Assembly (NCBI GenBank): GCA_012517355.1
Contig: JAAYVD010000021.1
Coordinates: forward strand, 1-38,101
Length of the DNA: 38,101 nt
Reading direction: 5' to 3'
DNA from: Candidatus Rifleibacteriota bacterium
GTDB lineage: Bacteria > Muiribacteriota > Ozemobacteria > Ozemobacterales > Ozemobacteraceae
Part shown: positions 13,137-30,781 of the stretch, one piece after another
Layout: every line of letters starts with the position of its first letter
How positions within the stretch are numbered: position 1 is the first letter of the stretch
The notes under the pieces: generated by a model
Seen by the model: only the letters and a program-made list of their open reading frames with translations
Told to the model about the DNA's origin: nothing
Databases searched by the model: none
Position numbers and translations under genes: made by a program

Positions 13137-16100
13137 TCAGGCCAGGCGGAAGGTCTCGACCGCCTGCCGCTTGCCCTTGACCTGCGTGGTGGCCAGCTTT
13201 TCCGCAGGGGGCGGGCTGGCGAGGGAAGCGAGGAACTGGCCCGACACCACCACGGTGACGCGGTCGCCGCCGCCGGTCGTGGCCCCGAACGGCGGGCCGG
13301 CCTTCCCCTCGGCGTCGGCCAGGGCCGCCAGGCGCGCCGCCAGGTTCACCGTGTCGCCGATCACCGTGTAGTCCATGCGGACCGACGGGGCGCCCAGGAT
13401 GCCGGCCACCGCCTCGCCCGCGTTGATGCCCATCGCCACCGGCAGGTCGCCGACCCCCGCCCGCACCGCGTCGACGACAGCGAGGGCCGCCCGCCCGGCG
13501 GCATCCGCCCCGCCGAGCCGCTCGTGGTCGAACACGGCGAGGATCTTCTCGCCCATGACCTTGTCGATCTCCCCGCCGGTGGCGGCCACGGTTCCCGACA
13601 CCGCCTCCAGGTGGCGGGCCAGCGCGGCGAAGATCCGCTCCTCCGTGGTCGGACTCCGGGTGGCCGGACCCCTGGCGTCGGGCGAAACGGGCGTTTCGCG
13701 CCGCTCTCCATGCCGGGAAGGGGGCACTTCCGACCTCGTGTCCGTCGGATCCCTGGGCGGAGCGGACCCCCCGGATGATCCCCTGCCCTCGTCGGCGCGG
13801 ACGTGGACCGCCGAAAAGAGGACGGTGACGTGGCGAAGTTCCCCCCGGCGCGCAGCGGCCCGGACGTCCCGGTCCTGGGCGGCCCGGCGGACCGAAGCCG
13901 ACACGTATTTCCCCAGGATCTCCCGTTCGCGCAGGGCCTGCTTCATCTGGTGGAAGGCCCGCGCCAGCGTGCCGAACTCGTCGGTCCGGGCGGCGTCGTG
14001 CGGCAGGGTGAGGTCGGGCTCGCGGGGCAGCCGGCGCATGGCCCCGAGAATCCGCTCGAGGGGGCCGAGGAAACCCGCCAGGGAAACGAGGGACGCCCCG
14101 AGGGCCAGCAGCACGCCCGCCGCGAACACCCACCGGAACCAGACGCGCAGGCCTCCCCCCGGGTCGACCAGGATGGCCTCCCCCGCGATGATGGTGGACG
14201 GCATCCAGGTGGCGGGAAACACCTCGCGCAGCGACCAGGCCCGGCCCTCCCGCACGGTCTCGCGGCGCCCGAGGTTGTCCTGGCGCACCCGCCGGACGAG
14301 GTCCAGCAGGCCGGGACAGGTGGCGAGCCCGGGCGGATTGGAATTCAACAGGTGCTGGGCCTGGTGCTGGGCGAACAGGGCCCGGCCCGGCCGGGGGTTG
14401 TCGCCGCCGGTGAAGGCGATGGACAAGCCGCGGTCGTTGAGGAAGGTCTGGTCGAGGATGCAGCCGAGGATCATCAGCCGCCCCTTGGGAGTCGTCACAG
14501 GAACGTACAGGAAGAAGAGGTTGCCGATGTGGCCCTGCAGCACCGACAGGAATCCCGGGTTGCGGAGGGCGCGCAGGAACCAGTCGGGGCCGACCAGGCT
14601 GCTGAAGGTGTCGCGGGCCATCTCGAACTCGAGGCCGCTCTTGTCGATGCCGTCAGGGGTGGGCGACCCCGTCCGGTCCAACCGGTCATGGATGGCCCGG
14701 CCGAGGATGAGGAACGGTTTCACCAGTTCCCCGATCCCCCCGCCCTGACCGCTTTCCAGCCAGGAGAAGCCCCGGGAGAACCCGCCTGGCCCGGCCAGGA
14801 AGAAGACCGTGCCGAGCCGGTAGCCGTCGGGGAGGGACATGCCTGCCCGGATTTCCCTGACCACGCTTTCGAACAGGGGTTGGCCTTCCCCGGTCTCGAA
14901 GGCGGTATCGAGGCGCCGGGCGAGGTCAGGGGTGCCGGCCAGTCGCAGGAAGACCGTGCGGAGGGCCACCGTGCCGCGGCGCGTCAGGGCGCAGGGCTCC
15001 CACAGGTCGGTCTCGAGGGCGGTGGCGGCTTCCTGCACCTTGCGCATGGTGAGTTCCTCGGCTGCCTGGCGGAACGCCCCGCGCAGGATCGACATCGGCA
15101 GCAGCACGACCAGGACGAAGGCGCCGATCAGCACCCACCCGACGTTCAGCCGGGGCCCGCGCCCGAACAGCGACCGTTCCCCCACCAGGAAGAAACCCGC
15201 GCCGGCCAGGAGCCCCATTCCCACCGGCAGCCAGGGGAACCCCTTCCCCGTCTCCCGCGCCGGGAAGGGGAGGGCCAGGAACAGCGTTCCCCCGGGCTCG
15301 GGCAAGGGGCGCTCGAAGACCAGGAAACCGTCCAGAGAGCGGGTCCGGCGGGTGGGCCGGGGGACCCCCTGGCGAGGCGCCGAACGGGCGTTTCGCGCCG
15401 CCATCCGTGGCGGCCCGGGGGCCCTTCCGACCTCCTGTCGTTCGGGCCCGGGCGTCCGGTTCCCCGGTTCCACCGGGCGGGCGGCCGCGGTTTTCAACCG
15501 ATGCCAAAGGCGGTCGAGGCCCTGGACCGGGGCGGGGTCCCCGGGGCCGTCGCCGGCCGGACTGGTCAGGATCTTCCCGTCCGCGCCCCGGAACAGGAGA
15601 TGGGCCCTCCCCTCCCGCCAATGCCGGCACAACTGCCGGACCCCGAATCCTGCCGGAACGTCCCGCAGGTCGATGACCGCATACAGCAGCCCCTCCTGGA
15701 TCGTCTTCTTGCTCGAGGACACCTCTGGCCAGGACTCCCACCAGAAGGCCCGGCTGCCTTCGACGGTGGTTCCCCAACGGATCTGGCCGTGGGAATCGAC
15801 GGTGATCTGGTCCTCGGGAATCGGGTATCGCAGCACTTTCCCGAGCGCGGTGGCGGTGCCTGCGAAGCGGCCCTCCCGGTCTTCCACGTCTGCCAGGATG
15901 TAGGCGATCAGGTCGGCCCCCGACACCGCGGCCAGGCCGAGGCCCCCGTCGTGCCCGGCTCCGGTCGCGGTTTCCGAAGCGGGGGGGGCGGCGGCCAGGA
16001 AGATGTCGTGGCGCGGGAAATCCCGGCCCAGCTCCCGCTGGTGGATCTCCCGCCATTCGGTCGCGGTGGGGAACCTCCCGGCGGCTTGCCGGACGTCGGC

Positions 16101-16310
16101 CAGGGCCCGATGGAACCGTTCCAGCCGCTTCTGCAACTGGATGTCCGGGGCGGCGGCCACCTCCGCGGCGTTCGCCAGGCGGTTGCCTTCCTCGAGGGCC
16201 CGCTCGAGGGCGAGGCGGTCTTCGGCCTCTGTTTCCAGGCGCCGGTCGGTCGCCAGGAACACGTAGGGAAGGCCCAGAAACACCAGCAGGGCGAACAGAC
16301 CCCTGGCCAT
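13137..16310 (-). CDS. Membrane class III nucleotidyl cyclase homologue, C2-like (metal Asp residues missing)
   Basis: This protein of 1057 residues has a first TM at the N-terminus, an extracytoplasmic region, a TM pair near 350-400, a second large sensor region (about 400-690), a TM, HAMP and a C-terminal cyclase domain (about 825-1057). The first strand reads VTVLFSAVHV, where active enzymes have FxDI, and the second metal Asp position reads VMGEKILAVF instead of IGD. The substrate and transition-state set is intact: EIDK, then DYTVIGDTVNLAARL with Asp, Asn and Arg. Alone it should not bind catalytic metal, but it matches the C2 half of animal cyclases. Two palindromic elements lie in frame (residues about 287-316 and 853-882), the second inside the cyclase domain. 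The ATG at 16310 follows the upstream stop by 5 bases. Confidence 0.85.
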   Translation of the reverse strand: MARGLFALLVFLGLPYVFLATDRRLETEAEDRLALERALEEGNRLANAAEVAAAPDIQLQKRLERFHRALADVRQAAGRFPTATEWREIHQRELGRDFPRHDIFLAAAPPASETATGAGHDGGLGLAAVSGADLIAYILADVEDREGRFAGTATALGKVLRYPIPEDQITVDSHGQIRWGTTVEGSRAFWWESWPEVSSSKKTIQEGLLYAVIDLRDVPAGFGVRQLCRHWREGRAHLLFRGADGKILTSPAGDGPGDPAPVQGLDRLWHRLKTAAARPVEPGNRTPGPERQEVGRAPGPPRMAARNARSAPRQGVPRPTRRTRSLDGFLVFERPLPEPGGTLFLALPFPARETGKGFPWLPVGMGLLAGAGFFLVGERSLFGRGPRLNVGWVLIGAFVLVVLLPMSILRGAFRQAAEELTMRKVQEAATALETDLWEPCALTRRGTVALRTVFLRLAGTPDLARRLDTAFETGEGQPLFESVVREIRAGMSLPDGYRLGTVFFLAGPGGFSRGFSWLESGQGGGIGELVKPFLILGRAIHDRLDRTGSPTPDGIDKSGLEFEMARDTFSSLVGPDWFLRALRNPGFLSVLQGHIGNLFFLYVPVTTPKGRLMILGCILDQTFLNDRGLSIAFTGGDNPRPGRALFAQHQAQHLLNSNPPGLATCPGLLDLVRRVRQDNLGRRETVREGRAWSLREVFPATWMPSTIIAGEAILVDPGGGLRVWFRWVFAAGVLLALGASLVSLAGFLGPLERILGAMRRLPREPDLTLPHDAARTDEFGTLARAFHQMKQALREREILGKYVSASVRRAAQDRDVRAAARRGELRHVTVLFSAVHVRADEGRGSSGGSAPPRDPTDTRSEVPPSRHGERRETPVSPDARGPATRSPTTEERIFAALARHLEAVSGTVAATGGEIDKVMGEKILAVFDHERLGGADAAGRAALAVVDAVRAGVGDLPVAMGINAGEAVAGILGAPSVRMDYTVIGDTVNLAARLAALADAEGKAGPPFGATTGGGDRVTVVVSGQFLASLASPPPAEKLATTQVKGKRQAVETFRLA
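13663..13750 (-). repeat. Palindromic element copy inside the cyclase domain
   Basis: This is a full 81-bp unit plus terminal repeat in the gene's sense direction. It adds 27 residues beginning PTDTRSEVPP and ending SPDARG. The GCGAAACG/CGTTTCGC stem is perfect here, while the central GCCGCC/GGCGGC stem is degraded. Confidence 0.85.
15361..15449 (-). repeat. Palindromic element copy in the sensor region of cyclase A
   Basis: This copy is oriented with the gene and read in element frame 1 (ERQEVGRAPGPPRMAARNAR). It sits in an Arg/Pro-rich linker before the second TM pair, the position that also holds the arrays in the upstream cyclase. Confidence 0.8.
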
Positions 16311-16315
16311 CCGCC

Positions 16316-19300
16316 TCACTCGGCCTCCTCCAGCGAGACGAGTTCCCACGCCTCTTCCCCTTTGATCTGCCGGAACCGCTCCGGGGAGCAGGCGCGGCAG
16401 ATCTCTTCGGCCACGACGATCCGGGTGAACAGCCCGTGCTTGGAACAGGCCTCAAGGCGCTCGGCCTGGTGCGGAACCTCCCCGAGCAGCACATGGTCGC
16501 GACGGCTGCTGGCCCGGACCGTCCCCCGCAGGATGGGACCCCAGGCGATGCCGATGCCGATGCCGTAGGTGAAGCGTCCCGCCTTCGCCCGTTCAGCCTG
16601 GGTCTGCTCGTGCGCCCGGCGCATGGCGATGGCGCCGTGCAGGGCGCGGGGAATGGCGTCGCGGGGCAGGTCGTCGAAGAAGGCGGCCACCACCGCGTCG
16701 CCGATGAACTGCTCGACGAGCCCGCCGGCCTCCTGCAGGGCGGTGGCCATCCGTTCGTGGTGCGCGTTGAGCATGCCGACCACGTCGTCGGGCGCATGTT
16801 CCTCGGAGAGGGTGGTGAATGACCGGATGTCGGAGGTCAACACCACCCCGGTCTGGGTGCGGGGGACGTCCCTCGCCGATCCGTCCTGGGCGCTCAGGTC
16901 GGCATCCAGGGCGGCCGAGACGAACCGGCCCAGGGTCCGGCGTTCCTCGAACCCCTGGATCATCTCGTCGAAGGCCCGCGACAGGTCGCCGAGCTCGTCG
17001 GCGCGGTCCAGCCCGAGGCGGAAGGCGAGGTCACCGCCCGCCACCCGTTGCAGGCCGGATGCCACGAACCCCAAAGGCTCGAGCAGGTGGTCGGTCAGGA
17101 TCAGGCCCACCGCCAGGACCGCCCCGAACAGCAGGCAAAGCAGGACCCCCAGCCACCTCCGTTCGCGTTCGGCCTGTTCGCGCAGCGGCCGGAGCGGGAC
17201 GATGGACCCGTAGAGGAGGGTCGAGGCCACCGTGCCGGGCTGGACCAGGTAGGCGACCTCGTCGACGATCTCGCGTTGGGCCGCCTGGCTGGAGGCGGCC
17301 AGTCCGAGCAGTTCGTGCAGGGACCGCCCGGCGCGGGACTGCCAGAACTCCCGGTGCTGGGGATGCAGGGGCAGGGCGGCCCGGTTCTCCCGGGCGGCCA
17401 GGAACAGCCGCGGTTGATCCGCCCCCGGGGGCTGGCGGCGGAGACGGGCCCGCAGATAGCGCGTCCATTGCGGCAGGGCCTCCGAGCGGAAGGCGATCAC
17501 GCTCGCGAGCTTCCCTTCCTGCGCCACGAAATCGTAGCACTGCAACTGGGGCCGGCCGGTCCCGGTGAAGGTGAGGGCCTGCTGGCGGGCCCGGTAGAAG
17601 GCCCAGTAGGCCTCCCGACGCAGGCCGAACTTCAGGGCGTTCGCCAATGTTCCGCCACCGGAAGTCTCCTGGATGAGCCGCACCGATTCGGAGGAGACTC
17701 CCATGCCCATCTGCTCGCAGCACCCCAGCACGAAGCCCAGCATGTAGTACATGCCGTGCGTTCCCGTGGATGGATGGCCGTCGGGGCCCTCCCAGGTCCG
17801 GCAGCCCGTGGTCATGTGGAACAGGACGAGCGAGTCGAGGGACAAGGCGAGGCCCGGCCGGGCGAACGCGGCGAAGGCCTGTCCCACCCCGGCGGGGCGT
17901 GGTGCGGCCCCCTCGGCGATCAGGGCCACGGCCCAGGCCTGGCTGGCCAGCAGCTCCCGGGAGACCTGCTGGAAGCGGTGTTCGACGACCCGGGCCTCCC
18001 GGTCGAGGTCGGCGATCCGGTCCCGCTGGTGCCGCAACAGGTCCTCCTGCCGTCGCGCCCGCGCCGACTCGATGAAGAAGGAACCGAAGACATCCAGCAG
18101 GAAGAGCACCATCCCCGCCAGGAACAGGTACAGCATCAGGAGCCGCCACCGCACCGACGCCAGGGGCGTGCGCCCCGTCAGCCGCCAGTGGCCCAGGGCG
18201 ATGGCCCACACCACCGCCAGCAGCCCCATGACCAGGGGAAGGGCGGGAGAAGCGGCGGTCACGCCCAGGCCGGGCCGGCCGAACAGCCAGAGTTCCCCGT
18301 CCAGGTTCGGGTCGAGGATTGCCCGGAACACCCGCCACCCTCCGGCCAGAGTCGTGGGCCGGTTGGCGGGAATCTGCCGGGTGAGGCCGGCCAGGGACCA
18401 GGAGGTCAGCAGGGTGGCCGGAGAAAGGCCCGTATAGCGGTTTTCCAGGGGAAAGAAGAACCCGCCCGTCGGGGAGGTGGACGGTCCCCCGGGGATGCCT
18501 GCAACGGGCGGGTCGCGCCGCCCTGCGGTCCGGTCCGGGGGAATGGCCGGCCTCATGTCGGTCGGCCCCTTGGCGGCGCGCGAAACGAGGGATTCTCGCC
18601 GCTCTCCGTGCGGGCCAGGGGGGACTTCTGACCTCGTGCCGGTCGGCCCCCTGGCGATCTGCGAAACAGGGGTTTCGCGCTCCCCTCCTGGTTGGCCAGG
18701 GGGAATCCCTTCCGGCGTCGGGTCCGACGGGTCCCGGTCTGGGTCGATCTCCGTGAAGGTGTAGCGATAGAGGTCCGGCTGGGCTTGCTCCAGGCTCTTG
18801 CGGGAAGCCGAAGCCGGGCCGGACAACGGGACCGGCCCCGTTGCCGCAGACGAAATGGCAGTGTCGCGCTGTTCCTCGTGGGGGTCAGGGGGCCTTTCCG
18901 CCCTCGTTCCGGTCGGCCACTTTGTACGCGAAACAGGGCTTTCCTGCTGCCCTCCGCGGCGGCGAAGGGGAATCCCTTCCGCCCTCGTTCCGGTCGGGTC
19001 ACTCGCGAGGTCCGGCCCGGCCGGGGCAACGGTGGCGGTGGCCGGGGCGGCGGGCGTGGAGGGGGTTCCGATCCGGTCGGCGGCCGGGAGGTAGACGGCG
19101 AACGGCAGAAGGGCGGGCAGGTGGTCGGCTGAACCGGCCAGCTGTCGCAGCAACCAGGCCTTGCGGGCGGGGGGGTCGGGAACCTCCGTCAGCATGAGCA
19201 GGAACGCCCCCGCCAGCCGGCCGCCGGGCCGGACGGGCATCCAGAGGAAGCGGAGGTCCTTCCCCCCCTGGAGGCCCGGCATCAGGCGACCTTCGGCATG

Positions 19301-19846
19301 GTCACGCAGGGCGGAAAAGGTGATGTCGGGACCGAGCAGGCCGGCGCACCGCCGGTTGAGGGCGCGGACCTCGCCCGCTCCGGGTGGCTCCCTTTCCACC
19401 ACCTTTTTCATGAGGCCGAGCACCAGGGCGCCCCTGGCCTGGGCCAGGCCCTCTCCAGGCAGCAGGTTCAGCGATTCGCCGCGGGAGCCGGCGAAGCCGT
19501 AGATCTGGGCGCCCGGTCGCCGGAACTCGTGGGCGAAGACCTGCCCGAAGCGCTTCCACAGCAGGGCCCCGGTCCATCGTTCCCCCTCGAGAAGATCCTG
19601 TTCGATGCGGTCGCGCAACCGCTGGGCCTGGTGCTCGACCTGGGTCTCGAGGGTGGCCATCGTGCCGGCCATGGTGGCCAGCTGCCGGGCCCGCTCGTCC
19701 CACGCGCCGATCCGTTGCTCGGCCTCGAAGCTGGCCCGCAGCTCCTGCTCGGCGTAGAAGCCGGCCAGGGGCAGCAGCGAGAGCAGGAAGGGAACGAGCC
19801 AGACCGTCCAGGGAACTGGGGCGGGTGGGGCGGTGGCGGTGATCAC
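16316..19846 (-). CDS. Membrane class III nucleotidyl cyclase homologue, C1-like (metal Asp residues present)
   Basis: This protein of 1176 residues has a TM at 13-30, a sensor region, a linker with five palindromic-element units (about 283-454), a central TM group, a second sensor region, a TM and HAMP, and a cyclase domain from about 1000. Both metal sites are present: VLTSDIRSFTTLSE and QFIGDAVVAAF. The substrate Lys is Gln (LVEQF), and the segment aligned with GDTVNLAAR reads GEVPHQAER, losing Asp and Asn but keeping Arg. This complements the next gene 5 bases downstream. Start: GTG at 19846 has GAGG upstream and overlaps a 16-codon leader ORF. A TTG at 19978 would lengthen the protein, but it lies upstream of a -10-like TATCAT. 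Confidence 0.85.
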   Translation of the reverse strand: MITATAPPAPVPWTVWLVPFLLSLLPLAGFYAEQELRASFEAEQRIGAWDERARQLATMAGTMATLETQVEHQAQRLRDRIEQDLLEGERWTGALLWKRFGQVFAHEFRRPGAQIYGFAGSRGESLNLLPGEGLAQARGALVLGLMKKVVEREPPGAGEVRALNRRCAGLLGPDITFSALRDHAEGRLMPGLQGGKDLRFLWMPVRPGGRLAGAFLLMLTEVPDPPARKAWLLRQLAGSADHLPALLPFAVYLPAADRIGTPSTPAAPATATVAPAGPDLASDPTGTRAEGIPLRRRGGQQESPVSRTKWPTGTRAERPPDPHEEQRDTAISSAATGPVPLSGPASASRKSLEQAQPDLYRYTFTEIDPDRDPSDPTPEGIPPGQPGGERETPVSQIARGPTGTRSEVPPGPHGERRESLVSRAAKGPTDMRPAIPPDRTAGRRDPPVAGIPGGPSTSPTGGFFFPLENRYTGLSPATLLTSWSLAGLTRQIPANRPTTLAGGWRVFRAILDPNLDGELWLFGRPGLGVTAASPALPLVMGLLAVVWAIALGHWRLTGRTPLASVRWRLLMLYLFLAGMVLFLLDVFGSFFIESARARRQEDLLRHQRDRIADLDREARVVEHRFQQVSRELLASQAWAVALIAEGAAPRPAGVGQAFAAFARPGLALSLDSLVLFHMTTGCRTWEGPDGHPSTGTHGMYYMLGFVLGCCEQMGMGVSSESVRLIQETSGGGTLANALKFGLRREAYWAFYRARQQALTFTGTGRPQLQCYDFVAQEGKLASVIAFRSEALPQWTRYLRARLRRQPPGADQPRLFLAARENRAALPLHPQHREFWQSRAGRSLHELLGLAASSQAAQREIVDEVAYLVQPGTVASTLLYGSIVPLRPLREQAERERRWLGVLLCLLFGAVLAVGLILTDHLLEPLGFVASGLQRVAGGDLAFRLGLDRADELGDLSRAFDEMIQGFEERRTLGRFVSAALDADLSAQDGSARDVPRTQTGVVLTSDIRSFTTLSEEHAPDDVVGMLNAHHERMATALQEAGGLVEQFIGDAVVAAFFDDLPRDAIPRALHGAIAMRRAHEQTQAERAKAGRFTYGIGIGIAWGPILRGTVRASSRRDHVLLGEVPHQAERLEACSKHGLFTRIVVAEEICRACSPERFRQIKGEEAWELVSLEEAE
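18479..18730 (-). repeat. Tandem array of three palindromic elements in cyclase B
   Basis: Three units are joined head to tail. The GGTCGG junctions at 18560 and 18641 are exactly 81 bases apart, and the outer ends are about one unit away. On the gene strand each unit gives 27 residues (starts PTGTRSEVPP, PTDMRPAIPP and a diverged first unit), so the array adds about 83 residues without breaking the frame. Confidence 0.88.
18830..18997 (-). repeat. Tandem pair of palindromic elements in cyclase B
   Basis: GGTCGG junctions at 18911 and 18992 are 81 bases apart, and a third boundary lies near 18830. The peptides begin PTGTRAEGIP and PTGTRAERPP. About 100 bases of ordinary coding sequence separate this pair from the triple array. 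Confidence 0.85.
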
Positions 19847-20198: not shown

Positions 20199-21425
20199 AT
20201 GACACCGGACCAGGACGGCAGGATGCCCGGGGCCGACCAGCAGGATGTCGGCAGTGGGTCCTTGTCGCAACGCATGGCCGCGCCGACCGGGAGTTTCGCG
20301 CGCCGGAAGGGGGCCGACAGAGAGGACGTCGGAAGTGCCCCTTTGCCGCCACGAATGGATGTGGAGCACAGCTGTTTCCGGCCTGGCCTGACTGCCGAAC
20401 CGGAGGTCTCGCCGGCAGTGGTGGGGGCGCTCGTGCGAAGGTGGGGGGAACGGCTGGCGGCTGGGGATCCCCTCCCCGCGATCCTGGCCGAGGCGGGACG
20501 AAACGCTGGAGACCCCGCCCTGGAGGAGGTTTTCGGGCAGGTGCGCCGGGCGGTGGTGGCGGGGCGGCCGCTCAGCCTCGCGCTGGCTTTGCACCCGCGG
20601 GTGTTCCCCGACCTGCTCGTCGGGTTCACACGGGCCGGCGAGGAAGGCGGTTGCCTGGAGGTGGTCTGGGGCTGGTTCGCCGATCACGTGGCCACCCGTG
20701 CCGATCTCGAGCGGTCGACGTGGTATGCCCTGGTCGTCCTCTTCGTCGCCCTGGCCGTGGTCTTCGCCCTGCTGGTGCTCGTCCTGCCGCAGTTCCAGGA
20801 GGTCTTCGCGGACATGCGGATCGAGCTCCCCCTGCCGACCCGCTTCCTGCTGGCGGTGTCCGACTGGGTGAGCCGGCTCTGGTGGCTGGCCGTCCCCCTC
20901 GGGTTGGGGACCCCGGTGCTCGTCTGGCGGACCCGGCGGACCCGCCTCGGCCGCGCCTGCTGGCAGCGGTTGGCCGACCGGCTCCCCTGGCTCGGCCGTT
21001 TCGCCCGGCTGAGCGCCGTCGCCCGCCTGGCGGCCCTGCTGTTGCTGCTCCTGGAATGCCGCGTGCCGGTGGTTCAGGCCGTGGGGCTCGCGGCCGCCGC
21101 GGCCGGGAACCGGCTGGTCGACGAGGCCGCCCCCCGGCTCCGCCGCCTGGTCGCCGCCGGCCGGCCCCTCTCGCACGCCCTGCGGGAAAGCGGCATCCTG
21201 TCCGATCGCGGGACGGCCGAACGGCTGGCCCGCGCCGAGGACGAAGGCCGGCTCGACTGGGGCCTGGCCGAACTGGCCAGGGATGCAGCCACCGAGGCCG
21301 GTCGGGCCCTTCGCCTCGCCACCATGCTCTTCGAGCCCCTGGTGATCGTCGGGTTGGGGCTGCTGATCGGGGGGATCGTCCTGTCCGTCTTCCTGCCGAT
21401 GGGCCACCTCGGCTGCGCCATGTAG
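20199..21425 (+). CDS. Type II secretion / type IV pilus GspF-PilC family membrane protein
   Basis: This 408-residue protein contains the T2SF domain twice (about residues 70-190 and 270-400). The first has the pattern RLAAGDPLPAILAEAG, then FTRAGEEGGCLEVV. The second has LLLECRVPVVQAVGLAA and an RAEDEGRLDWGLAELA segment. Three hydrophobic stretches (about 185-210, 225-245 and a C-terminal one) match the GspF topology. No other secretion genes adjoin it. GGAGGA at 20185-20190 sets the ATG at 20199, and the first 65 residues then come almost entirely from two palindromic elements. If translation instead began at ATG 20355, which has no ribosome site, the elements would lie in the leader. Confidence 0.82.
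   Translation: MTPDQDGRMPGADQQDVGSGSLSQRMAAPTGSFARRKGADREDVGSAPLPPRMDVEHSCFRPGLTAEPEVSPAVVGALVRRWGERLAAGDPLPAILAEAGRNAGDPALEEVFGQVRRAVVAGRPLSLALALHPRVFPDLLVGFTRAGEEGGCLEVVWGWFADHVATRADLERSTWYALVVLFVALAVVFALLVLVLPQFQEVFADMRIELPLPTRFLLAVSDWVSRLWWLAVPLGLGTPVLVWRTRRTRLGRACWQRLADRLPWLGRFARLSAVARLAALLLLLLECRVPVVQAVGLAAAAAGNRLVDEAAPRLRRLVAAGRPLSHALRESGILSDRGTAERLARAEDEGRLDWGLAELARDAATEAGRALRLATMLFEPLVIVGLGLLIGGIVLSVFLPMGHLGCAM
20234..20395 (+). repeat. Two tandem palindromic elements at the GspF-like N-terminus
   Basis: CCGACC at 20234 and CCGACA at 20315 are 81 bases apart. The second unit begins with a near-consensus GTCGGAAGTGCCCCTTTGCC and decays after about 20360. The upstream sequence at 20221-20233 looks like the tail of a further unit. 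They are read in element frame 1 (ADREDVGSAPLPPRM) and oriented with the gene. Confidence 0.82.
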
Positions 21426-29041: not shown

Positions 29042-29059
29042 GCCCTGACCGGCCCCGCC

Positions 29060-29146
29060 CCGACCGACACGAGGTCGGAAGTGCCCCTTTGCCGCCATGG
29101 ACGGCGGCGCGAAACGCCAGTTTCGCGCATCGCCAGGGGGCCGACC
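29060..29146 (+). repeat. Near-consensus palindromic element in the DUF362 leader
   Basis: CCGACC at 29060 and at 29141 bound an 81-base unit. It has three stems: CCGAC/GTCGG, GCCGCC/GGCGGC around ATGGAC, and GCGAAAC/GTTTCGC. It lies between the predicted promoter and the ribosome site, so it would be transcribed into the 5' leader. It contains no stop trinucleotide on either strand. Confidence 0.9.
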
Positions 29147-30685: not shown

Positions 30686-30697
30686 CGAGGGTCCCCC

Positions 30698-30781
30698 CCG
30701 ACCGACACGATGTCGGAAGTGCCCCTTTGCCGCCACGGATGGCGGCGCGAAACGGCAGGTTCGCGCATCGCACAGGGGCCC
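30698..30781 (+). repeat. Near-consensus palindromic element between convergent genes
   Basis: The copy starts 13 bases after the pilin-like stop and ends 37 bases before the end of the opposing gene. The CCGAC/GTCGG and GCCGCC/GGCGGC stems are perfect. As the only structure in the 132-base convergent gap, it may serve as the 3' end of one or both transcripts. It has no stop trinucleotide in six frames. Confidence 0.9.

Follow-up and report, generated by a model that had tools for sequence, protein, structure and literature searches.

Two adjacent genes, hereafter B and A, in a 38,101-nt stretch of DNA from a Candidatus Rifleibacteriota bacterium (contig JAAYVD010000021.1 of assembly GCA_012517355.1; this whole stretch is referred to as the window) very probably encode the C1-type and the C2-type subunit, respectively, of one heterodimeric class IIIb adenylyl cyclase. 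The observations behind this are the two sequences, their layout, the way in which the catalytic residues are split between them, the conservation of this split, the coupling of the genes and the co-divergence of the partners; from these we infer dimerisation, catalysis, ATP as the substrate and the sensing of ligands. Similar pairs recur within the same genome and in its relatives, and they are best explained, as far as sequences can tell, as obligate heterodimeric or pseudoheterodimeric adenylyl cyclases, a bacterial parallel to the animal enzymes. Furthermore, it appears likely that an adenylyl cyclase of the animal C1/C2 style was invented independently in one Candidatus Riflebacteria family and multiplied there into dozens of two-sensor paralogues per cell, with the complete cyclase, the two-gene heterodimer and the fused pseudoheterodimer standing side by side as stages in living genomes. 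The two genes and their recognisable parts are:

16316..19846, minus strand: gene B, 1176 amino acids (aa), putative C1-type, metal-donating membrane cyclase (open reading frame (ORF) and translation)
16311..16315, minus strand: 5-nt spacer between the stop codon of B and the ATG of A (read from the sequence)
13137..16310, minus strand: gene A, 1057 aa, putative C2-type, K/T/N/R-donating membrane cyclase (ORF and translation)
16952..17086, minus strand: HAMP domain of B (Pfam, 32 bits)
16319..16861, minus strand: catalytic domain of B, aa 996-1176 (Pfam and AlphaFold2 model)
13926..14069, minus strand: HAMP domain of A (Pfam)
13140..13841, minus strand: catalytic domain of A, aa 824-1057, with an in-frame disordered insert inside (AlphaFold2 model)

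Gene A starts with the ATG at 16310 and gene B probably with the GTG at 19846, and translation of the two is likely coupled across the spacer. Pfam detected HAMP and Guanylate_cyc, and nothing else, in both proteins; the curated cut-off of PF00211 (Guanylate_cyc; 21.9 bits) was passed by B with 39.2 bits and by A with 22.3 bits, and the catalytic domain of A scored 189 bits (E 2e-55) against the profile of its own subfamily. The AlphaFold2 models, for which alignments of 33 full-length relatives in one case and 32 in the other were used, reached predicted local distance difference test scores (pLDDT) of 75.5 for A and 73.7 for B. Both follow the same layout: a first transmembrane (TM) helix, a long helix and an alpha/beta module are followed by TM2, by TM3 with its own long helix, by another alpha/beta module and then by TM4, HAMP and cyclase. 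Four TM helices are thus present in each model, and hydropathy predicted three to five, mostly four, per half among the pairs. In Foldseek searches the cyclase domains matched CyaB, CyaC, Cya2 and photoactivated cyclases, and the TM-scores (template modelling scores) of 0.63-0.78 by target length against CyaB, CyaC and Cya2 are those of the class III catalytic fold. The two alpha/beta modules of each subunit are extracytoplasmic sensor regions, each about 300 residues long, which look Cache-like by their secondary structure; for both models the 50 best fold matches in the PDB consisted entirely of cyclases, with no solved relative of these modules among them. In profile comparisons the two sensors of A proved homologous to their counterparts in B (E 3e-12 for sensor 1 and 4e-13 for sensor 2), indicating that A and B derive from the duplication of a whole gene.

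In class III cyclases the active site is shared across the dimer, with two metal-binding Asp residues contributed by one monomer and Lys, Asp/Thr, Asn and Arg by the other. The corresponding positions of B and A are:

16829..16831, minus strand: B Asp1006, metal Asp 1, kept (sequence)
16697..16699, minus strand: B Asp1050, metal Asp 2, kept (sequence)
16709..16711, minus strand: B Gln1046, replacing the base-contacting Lys (sequence)
16469..16471, minus strand: B His1126, replacing the transition-state Asn (sequence)
13809..13811, minus strand: A Ala834, at the metal Asp 1 position in strand beta1 (sequence and AlphaFold2 model)
13548..13550, minus strand: A Glu921, at the metal Asp 2 position (sequence and AlphaFold2 model)
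13560..13562, minus strand: A Lys917, base-contacting, kept (sequence)
13365..13367, minus strand: A Thr982, base-selecting, class IIIb form (sequence)
13344..13346, minus strand: A Asn989, transition-state, kept (sequence)
13332..13334, minus strand: A Arg993, transition-state, kept (sequence)

The metal Asp pair thus lies on B and Lys, Asn and Arg lie on A, which is the C1/C2-type arrangement, and K917 together with T982 provides A with the Lys plus Thr/Ser base-selecting pair of subclass IIIb. A full catalytic set within one domain, as in homodimeric enzymes, was found neither in A or B nor in any member of the 90 pairs described below. Given that the losses are complementary and that the class III site is shared across the dimer, a site can be completed only in a B-A dimer, which would hold just one. 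An earlier note, made from the letters of the window, had already described the 5-base spacing of the genes, the shared membrane architecture, the retention of both metal Asp in B and their absence from A, and all four observations hold. Its description of B as having Gln for Lys and GEVPHQAER in place of GDTVNLAAR is correct for Q1046 and H1126, but the Arg of this motif is still present (R1130). Likewise, its statement that A keeps Lys, Asp, Asn and Arg stands for K917, N989 and R993, but the Asp of GDTVN is not the base-selecting residue, which is Thr982; this position, seven residues ahead of Asn, corresponds to Asp1018 in mammalian C2, and in B it is occupied by Val1119. In the automatic alignment A had a gap where metal Asp 1 is expected, because an insert composed of a dispersed repeat follows Ala834 directly. 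Displacement of metal Asp 1 to another site in A was ruled out, as Ala834 sits in beta1 of the model; the models place the metal positions where they were expected.

The division of roles proposed in the earlier note is strongly supported, and its recurrence was underestimated there. A Pfam search of the 7.1-Mb assembly (184 contigs) from which the window comes revealed 87 class III domains, most of which are paired in about 28 tandem pairs whose members are 3-4 kb apart; 12 pairs are fused in a single ORF of 1632-2681 aa. In every pair of the A/B family in this genome one partner has both metal Asp and a broken Asn/Arg, and the other has Lys, Thr, Asn and Arg and lacks metal Asp 1. We extended the count to nine genomes of the same family (G001-G009), which together with the own genome represent eight genera, the own genus included, and to two Candidatus Riflebacteria contigs (L161 and L162). 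The residue split was complementary in 90 of the 94 adjacent cyclase-domain pairs (fused in 37 cases, encoded separately with the metal gene leading in 39 and separately in reversed order in 14; L103, one of the 14, was mispaired across two neighbouring fused genes at the start of its stretch and, when paired correctly, is a further fused pair). This proportion greatly exceeds what chance would produce. Outside the pattern are two triples (L036 and L151), the contig-edge case L110 and L058, where the neighbour is unrelated. All 90 C1-type domains keep both metal Asp and none keeps Asn and Arg together; the C2-type domains have Lys (89/89), Thr (90/90), Asn (90/90) and Arg (90/90) and have lost metal Asp 1 or 2. 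Classes were assigned by the metal Asp and Asn/Arg, and the definition left out Lys, Thr and the phosphate-binding KGK motif: Lys and Thr occur in only 36/90 and 42/90 C1-type domains, and KGK is found in 76/90 C2-type and 0/90 C1-type domains, two of the latter having a bare KG. In the C1-type domain, few columns vary more than those of Asn and Arg (entropy ranks 140 and 133 of 147). In all 37 fused proteins the first half is C1-type and the second C2-type.

Cyclases that stand alone in these genomes have the full residue set, except one (L059), and no true orthologue of A without a partner was found in the examined genomes, save at contig or stretch edges. The exception (L059:3830-6256, minus strand, on G000:C112) has Gly at metal Asp 1 with K, D2, T, N and R intact, and its architecture of sCache_3_2, HAMP, cyclase and HEAT repeats is unrelated to the A/B family; it is possibly a lone C2-like subunit, or else a pseudocyclase, without an adjacent partner. 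Half-cyclases also occur in arrays, with three consecutive C2-C1 pairs at L128 (G005:C67), a C1-C1-C2 triple at L036 (G000:C20) and a complete-C2-C1 triple at L151 (G001:C18); the arrays include a subfamily in which the gene order is reversed and His or Gly takes the place of metal Asp 1. At one locus of the own genome (L040, G000:C41:1-10000) the second half of a pair is apparently broken by a frameshift and an in-frame TAG, with the sensor match in one frame and the C2 domain in another, and this appears to be a pseudogene or an assembly error.

Some observations weigh against an obligate heterodimer with a single site. The zero variation at D1, D2, N and R is partly by construction, since these residues partly defined the classes. 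Two C2-type partners (L122 and L139) keep metal Asp 1 and have lost metal Asp 2 alone, which is another route to the same division of roles. Metal Asp 2 is retained in about half of the C2-type domains and Arg in 13/90 C1-type domains; that is, remnants of a second site exist. Moreover, the genomes all appear to be draft assemblies, probably from metagenomes.

The partnership is also visible in gene arrangement and divergence. Among the 48 measurable junctions between separate genes, 25 show an overlap of exactly 4 nt and eight an overlap of 8 nt, a sign of coupled translation. Within the own genome, distances between C1 domains correlated with those between their partner C2 domains (r 0.66, 27 pairs; none of 5000 permutations as high). 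As a single genome was compared, species history cannot confound this correlation, which indicates that the pairs duplicated and diverged as units. In a tree computed after removal of the catalytic columns, most C1-type and most C2-type domains fell into separate supported clades, and the reversed-order pairs (C2-type gene first) formed side branches outside them, for which reason two independent origins of the split were considered. A single C2 clade is, however, compatible with the approximately unbiased (AU) test (p 0.73), and a branch with support 80 has every C1-type domain on the same side, so that one origin is a possible reading as well.

The full-length C2-type profile gave strong full-length matches in most of 24 genomes of the same family and zero to two weak matches each in 16 genomes of the phylum's other families, of which the best were examined and proved to be complete cyclases. 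A scan of GTDB contigs with the single sequence of B gave no matches, and the scan with the C2-type profile did; at the 78 loci from other phyla found in this way, metal Asp, Asn and Arg are all kept in the matched domain. Judged from these 78 contig loci and the best matches in the 16 genomes, the split appears to be limited to one Riflebacteria family.

Two further parts of the A/B pair are insertions:

13647..13805, minus strand: disordered insert in the catalytic domain of A, aa 836-888, pLDDT about 35, repeat family D1
18434..19123, minus strand: disordered insert in sensor 1 of B, aa 242-471, in frame, with four to five repeat copies (AlphaFold2 model)

The insert in A, about 50 residues between beta1 and alpha1, is composed of a repeat dispersed genome-wide. 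The element is 81 nt long and contains the palindrome GCGCGAAAC-N4-GTTTCGCGC, which occurs 483 times in the genome, as compared with once for a control pattern, and at background numbers in 12 relatives, two of which are from the same genus. Copies in the window lie at 13669-13748, 15366-15445, 18486-18916, 20228-20396, 29055-29142 and 30693-30780. They lie in frame within genes, at steps of 81, 84 or 162 nt, where they give rise to disordered protein segments, even within a catalytic domain, in a manner reminiscent of the Rickettsia palindromic elements.

In the mechanism that we propose, B would supply the two metal-binding aspartates, and A the adenine-contacting Lys and Thr, the transition-state Asn and Arg and the phosphate-binding Lys of the KGK motif. 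Neither protein would complete an active site with itself; a B-A dimer would contain one composite site, the second being dead, and two different sets of sensors would, via HAMP, feed this one site making cyclic AMP (cAMP). The genome also encodes 24 cyclic nucleotide monophosphate (cNMP)-binding domains beside its 87 cyclase domains in 7.1 Mb, which by gene content is an exceptionally large predicted cAMP network, and the cNMP-binding domains would be the likely effectors of cAMP. Pairs probably arose when a whole sensor-cyclase gene was duplicated, followed by translational coupling and, in many paralogues, by fusion.

Other explanations were weighed against this heterodimer. B might be an active homodimer with an unorthodox mechanism and A a regulatory pseudocyclase acting as an allosteric modulator, given that B keeps both metal Asp and Arg and that unusual substrate residues function in some bacterial class III enzymes (Rv0386, Rv1900c). 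However, K, T, N and R, and mostly KGK, are kept in the C2-type partner over eight genera and would be useful for catalysis in trans alone, while Asn and Arg of the C1-type domain vary as freely as noted above, and we regard this explanation as very unlikely. That A and B are decaying, non-catalytic pseudoenzymes, for instance damaged by the spreading repeat, could be suggested by the repeat inside the catalytic domain of A and by the apparently interrupted paralogue on C41, but nearly all copies have long open frames, the losses are complementary and not random in 90/94 pairs and the residues required in trans have been retained across the genera, which makes decay extremely improbable; random decay of both copies was rejected on account of the complementarity.

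The pairs could also be heterodimers making a product other than cAMP, such as cyclic GMP. Specificity is not readable with certainty from residues, and the guanylyl cyclase Cya2 is a close structural match. Against this, every readable C2-type partner has Lys and Thr, the class IIIb adenylyl signature, and a guanylyl cyclase is expected to carry Glu and Gly/Cys/Ser at the base positions; the probability left to another product is accordingly slight. Finally, since the roughly 28 pairs of the genome are all related by homology and occur together there, subunits might exchange freely among them, in which case the functional unit would be a combinatorial network and not a fixed pair. The 12 fusions in the own genome, the tight gene coupling and the C1-C2 co-divergence speak for fixed partners, and free exchange seems improbable.

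With B and A as obligate partners, an animal-type division of catalytic labour would exist in bacteria in about 90 two-gene or fused pairs, though in another subclass and with another membrane layout. Experiments could then directly address how a homodimer becomes a pseudoheterodimer, and the pairs would serve as models for asking why an enzyme abandons the second of its active sites. With 87 cyclase domains, an almost unstudied phylum would also turn out to possess a very large repertoire for dual-input sensing through cAMP. Bacterial class III cyclases have been described as homodimerising monomers, and the pseudoheterodimer as a eukaryotic form that arose by duplication and fusion (PMC4821796, PMC9552081), the fusion being dated in the published view to the primordial eukaryote (PMC9552081). 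In our literature searches, in which subscription journals are thinly covered, no paper on bacterial heterodimeric or two-domain class III cyclases was found. Division of labour as a principle is known from animals; that it occurs naturally in bacteria, repeatedly and also in fused form, appears to be new. A precedent has been engineered: D300A and R376A chimeras of Rv1625c, each dead alone, complement each other (PMC4821796).

Among known systems, the closest in catalytic-domain sequence and fold are P. aeruginosa CyaB, Spirulina CyaC and M. tuberculosis Rv1625c/Cya (3r5g, 1wc0/1wc1, 2w01), but these carry the full residue set in each monomer and form two equivalent sites per homodimer, whereas the set is divided here. 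Heterodimers with divided roles, as proposed here, are known in soluble guanylyl cyclase (sGC) alpha/beta and in the chytrid rhodopsin cyclase with NeoR; however, they are eukaryotic and guanylyl specific, have haem or rhodopsin sensors and are not operon-encoded. Soluble adenylyl cyclase (sAC, ADCY10) joins C1 and C2 in one chain, like the fused pairs, with the same residue split (in the human enzyme metal Asp47 and Asp99 in C1 and Lys334, Asn412 and Arg416 in C2; PMC12867704), but it is cytosolic, the linker between its catalytic domains is short (216-249), and it lacks both HAMP and extracytoplasmic sensors, whereas A and B have TM helices and HAMP. Against solved structures, the C1-type profile matched residues 41-195 of sAC (C1), the C1 halves of AC8 and AC5, VC1 and sGC alpha, and the C2-type profile matched residues 288-418 of sAC (C2), the C2 halves of AC8 and AC5, IIC2 and sGC beta. 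The profiles thus find the corresponding halves of sAC, and sGC alpha resembles the C1-type and sGC beta the C2-type; AC9 was exceptional in that its C1 half was matched by both profiles.

The animal membrane cyclases AC1-9, class IIIa pseudoheterodimers, resemble the pairs described here in having two homologous halves, each with a membrane domain and a cyclase, in drawing the metal Asp from the C1 half and Lys, Asn and Arg from the C2 half to form one composite site, and in placing the C1 half first in every fused case. They differ in having six TM helices per half instead of four with two large extracytoplasmic modules and HAMP, and the class IIIa Asp at the base-selecting position instead of Thr (90/90, class IIIb). 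Moreover, the pairs here are bacterial, and in many the halves are encoded by separate genes, in some of them with the C2-type gene first. Both profiles match bacterial class IIIb enzymes best, which, together with a membrane part unlike the 6-TM anchors of the animal enzymes, argues for a parallel origin and not for shared descent with the animal membrane cyclases.

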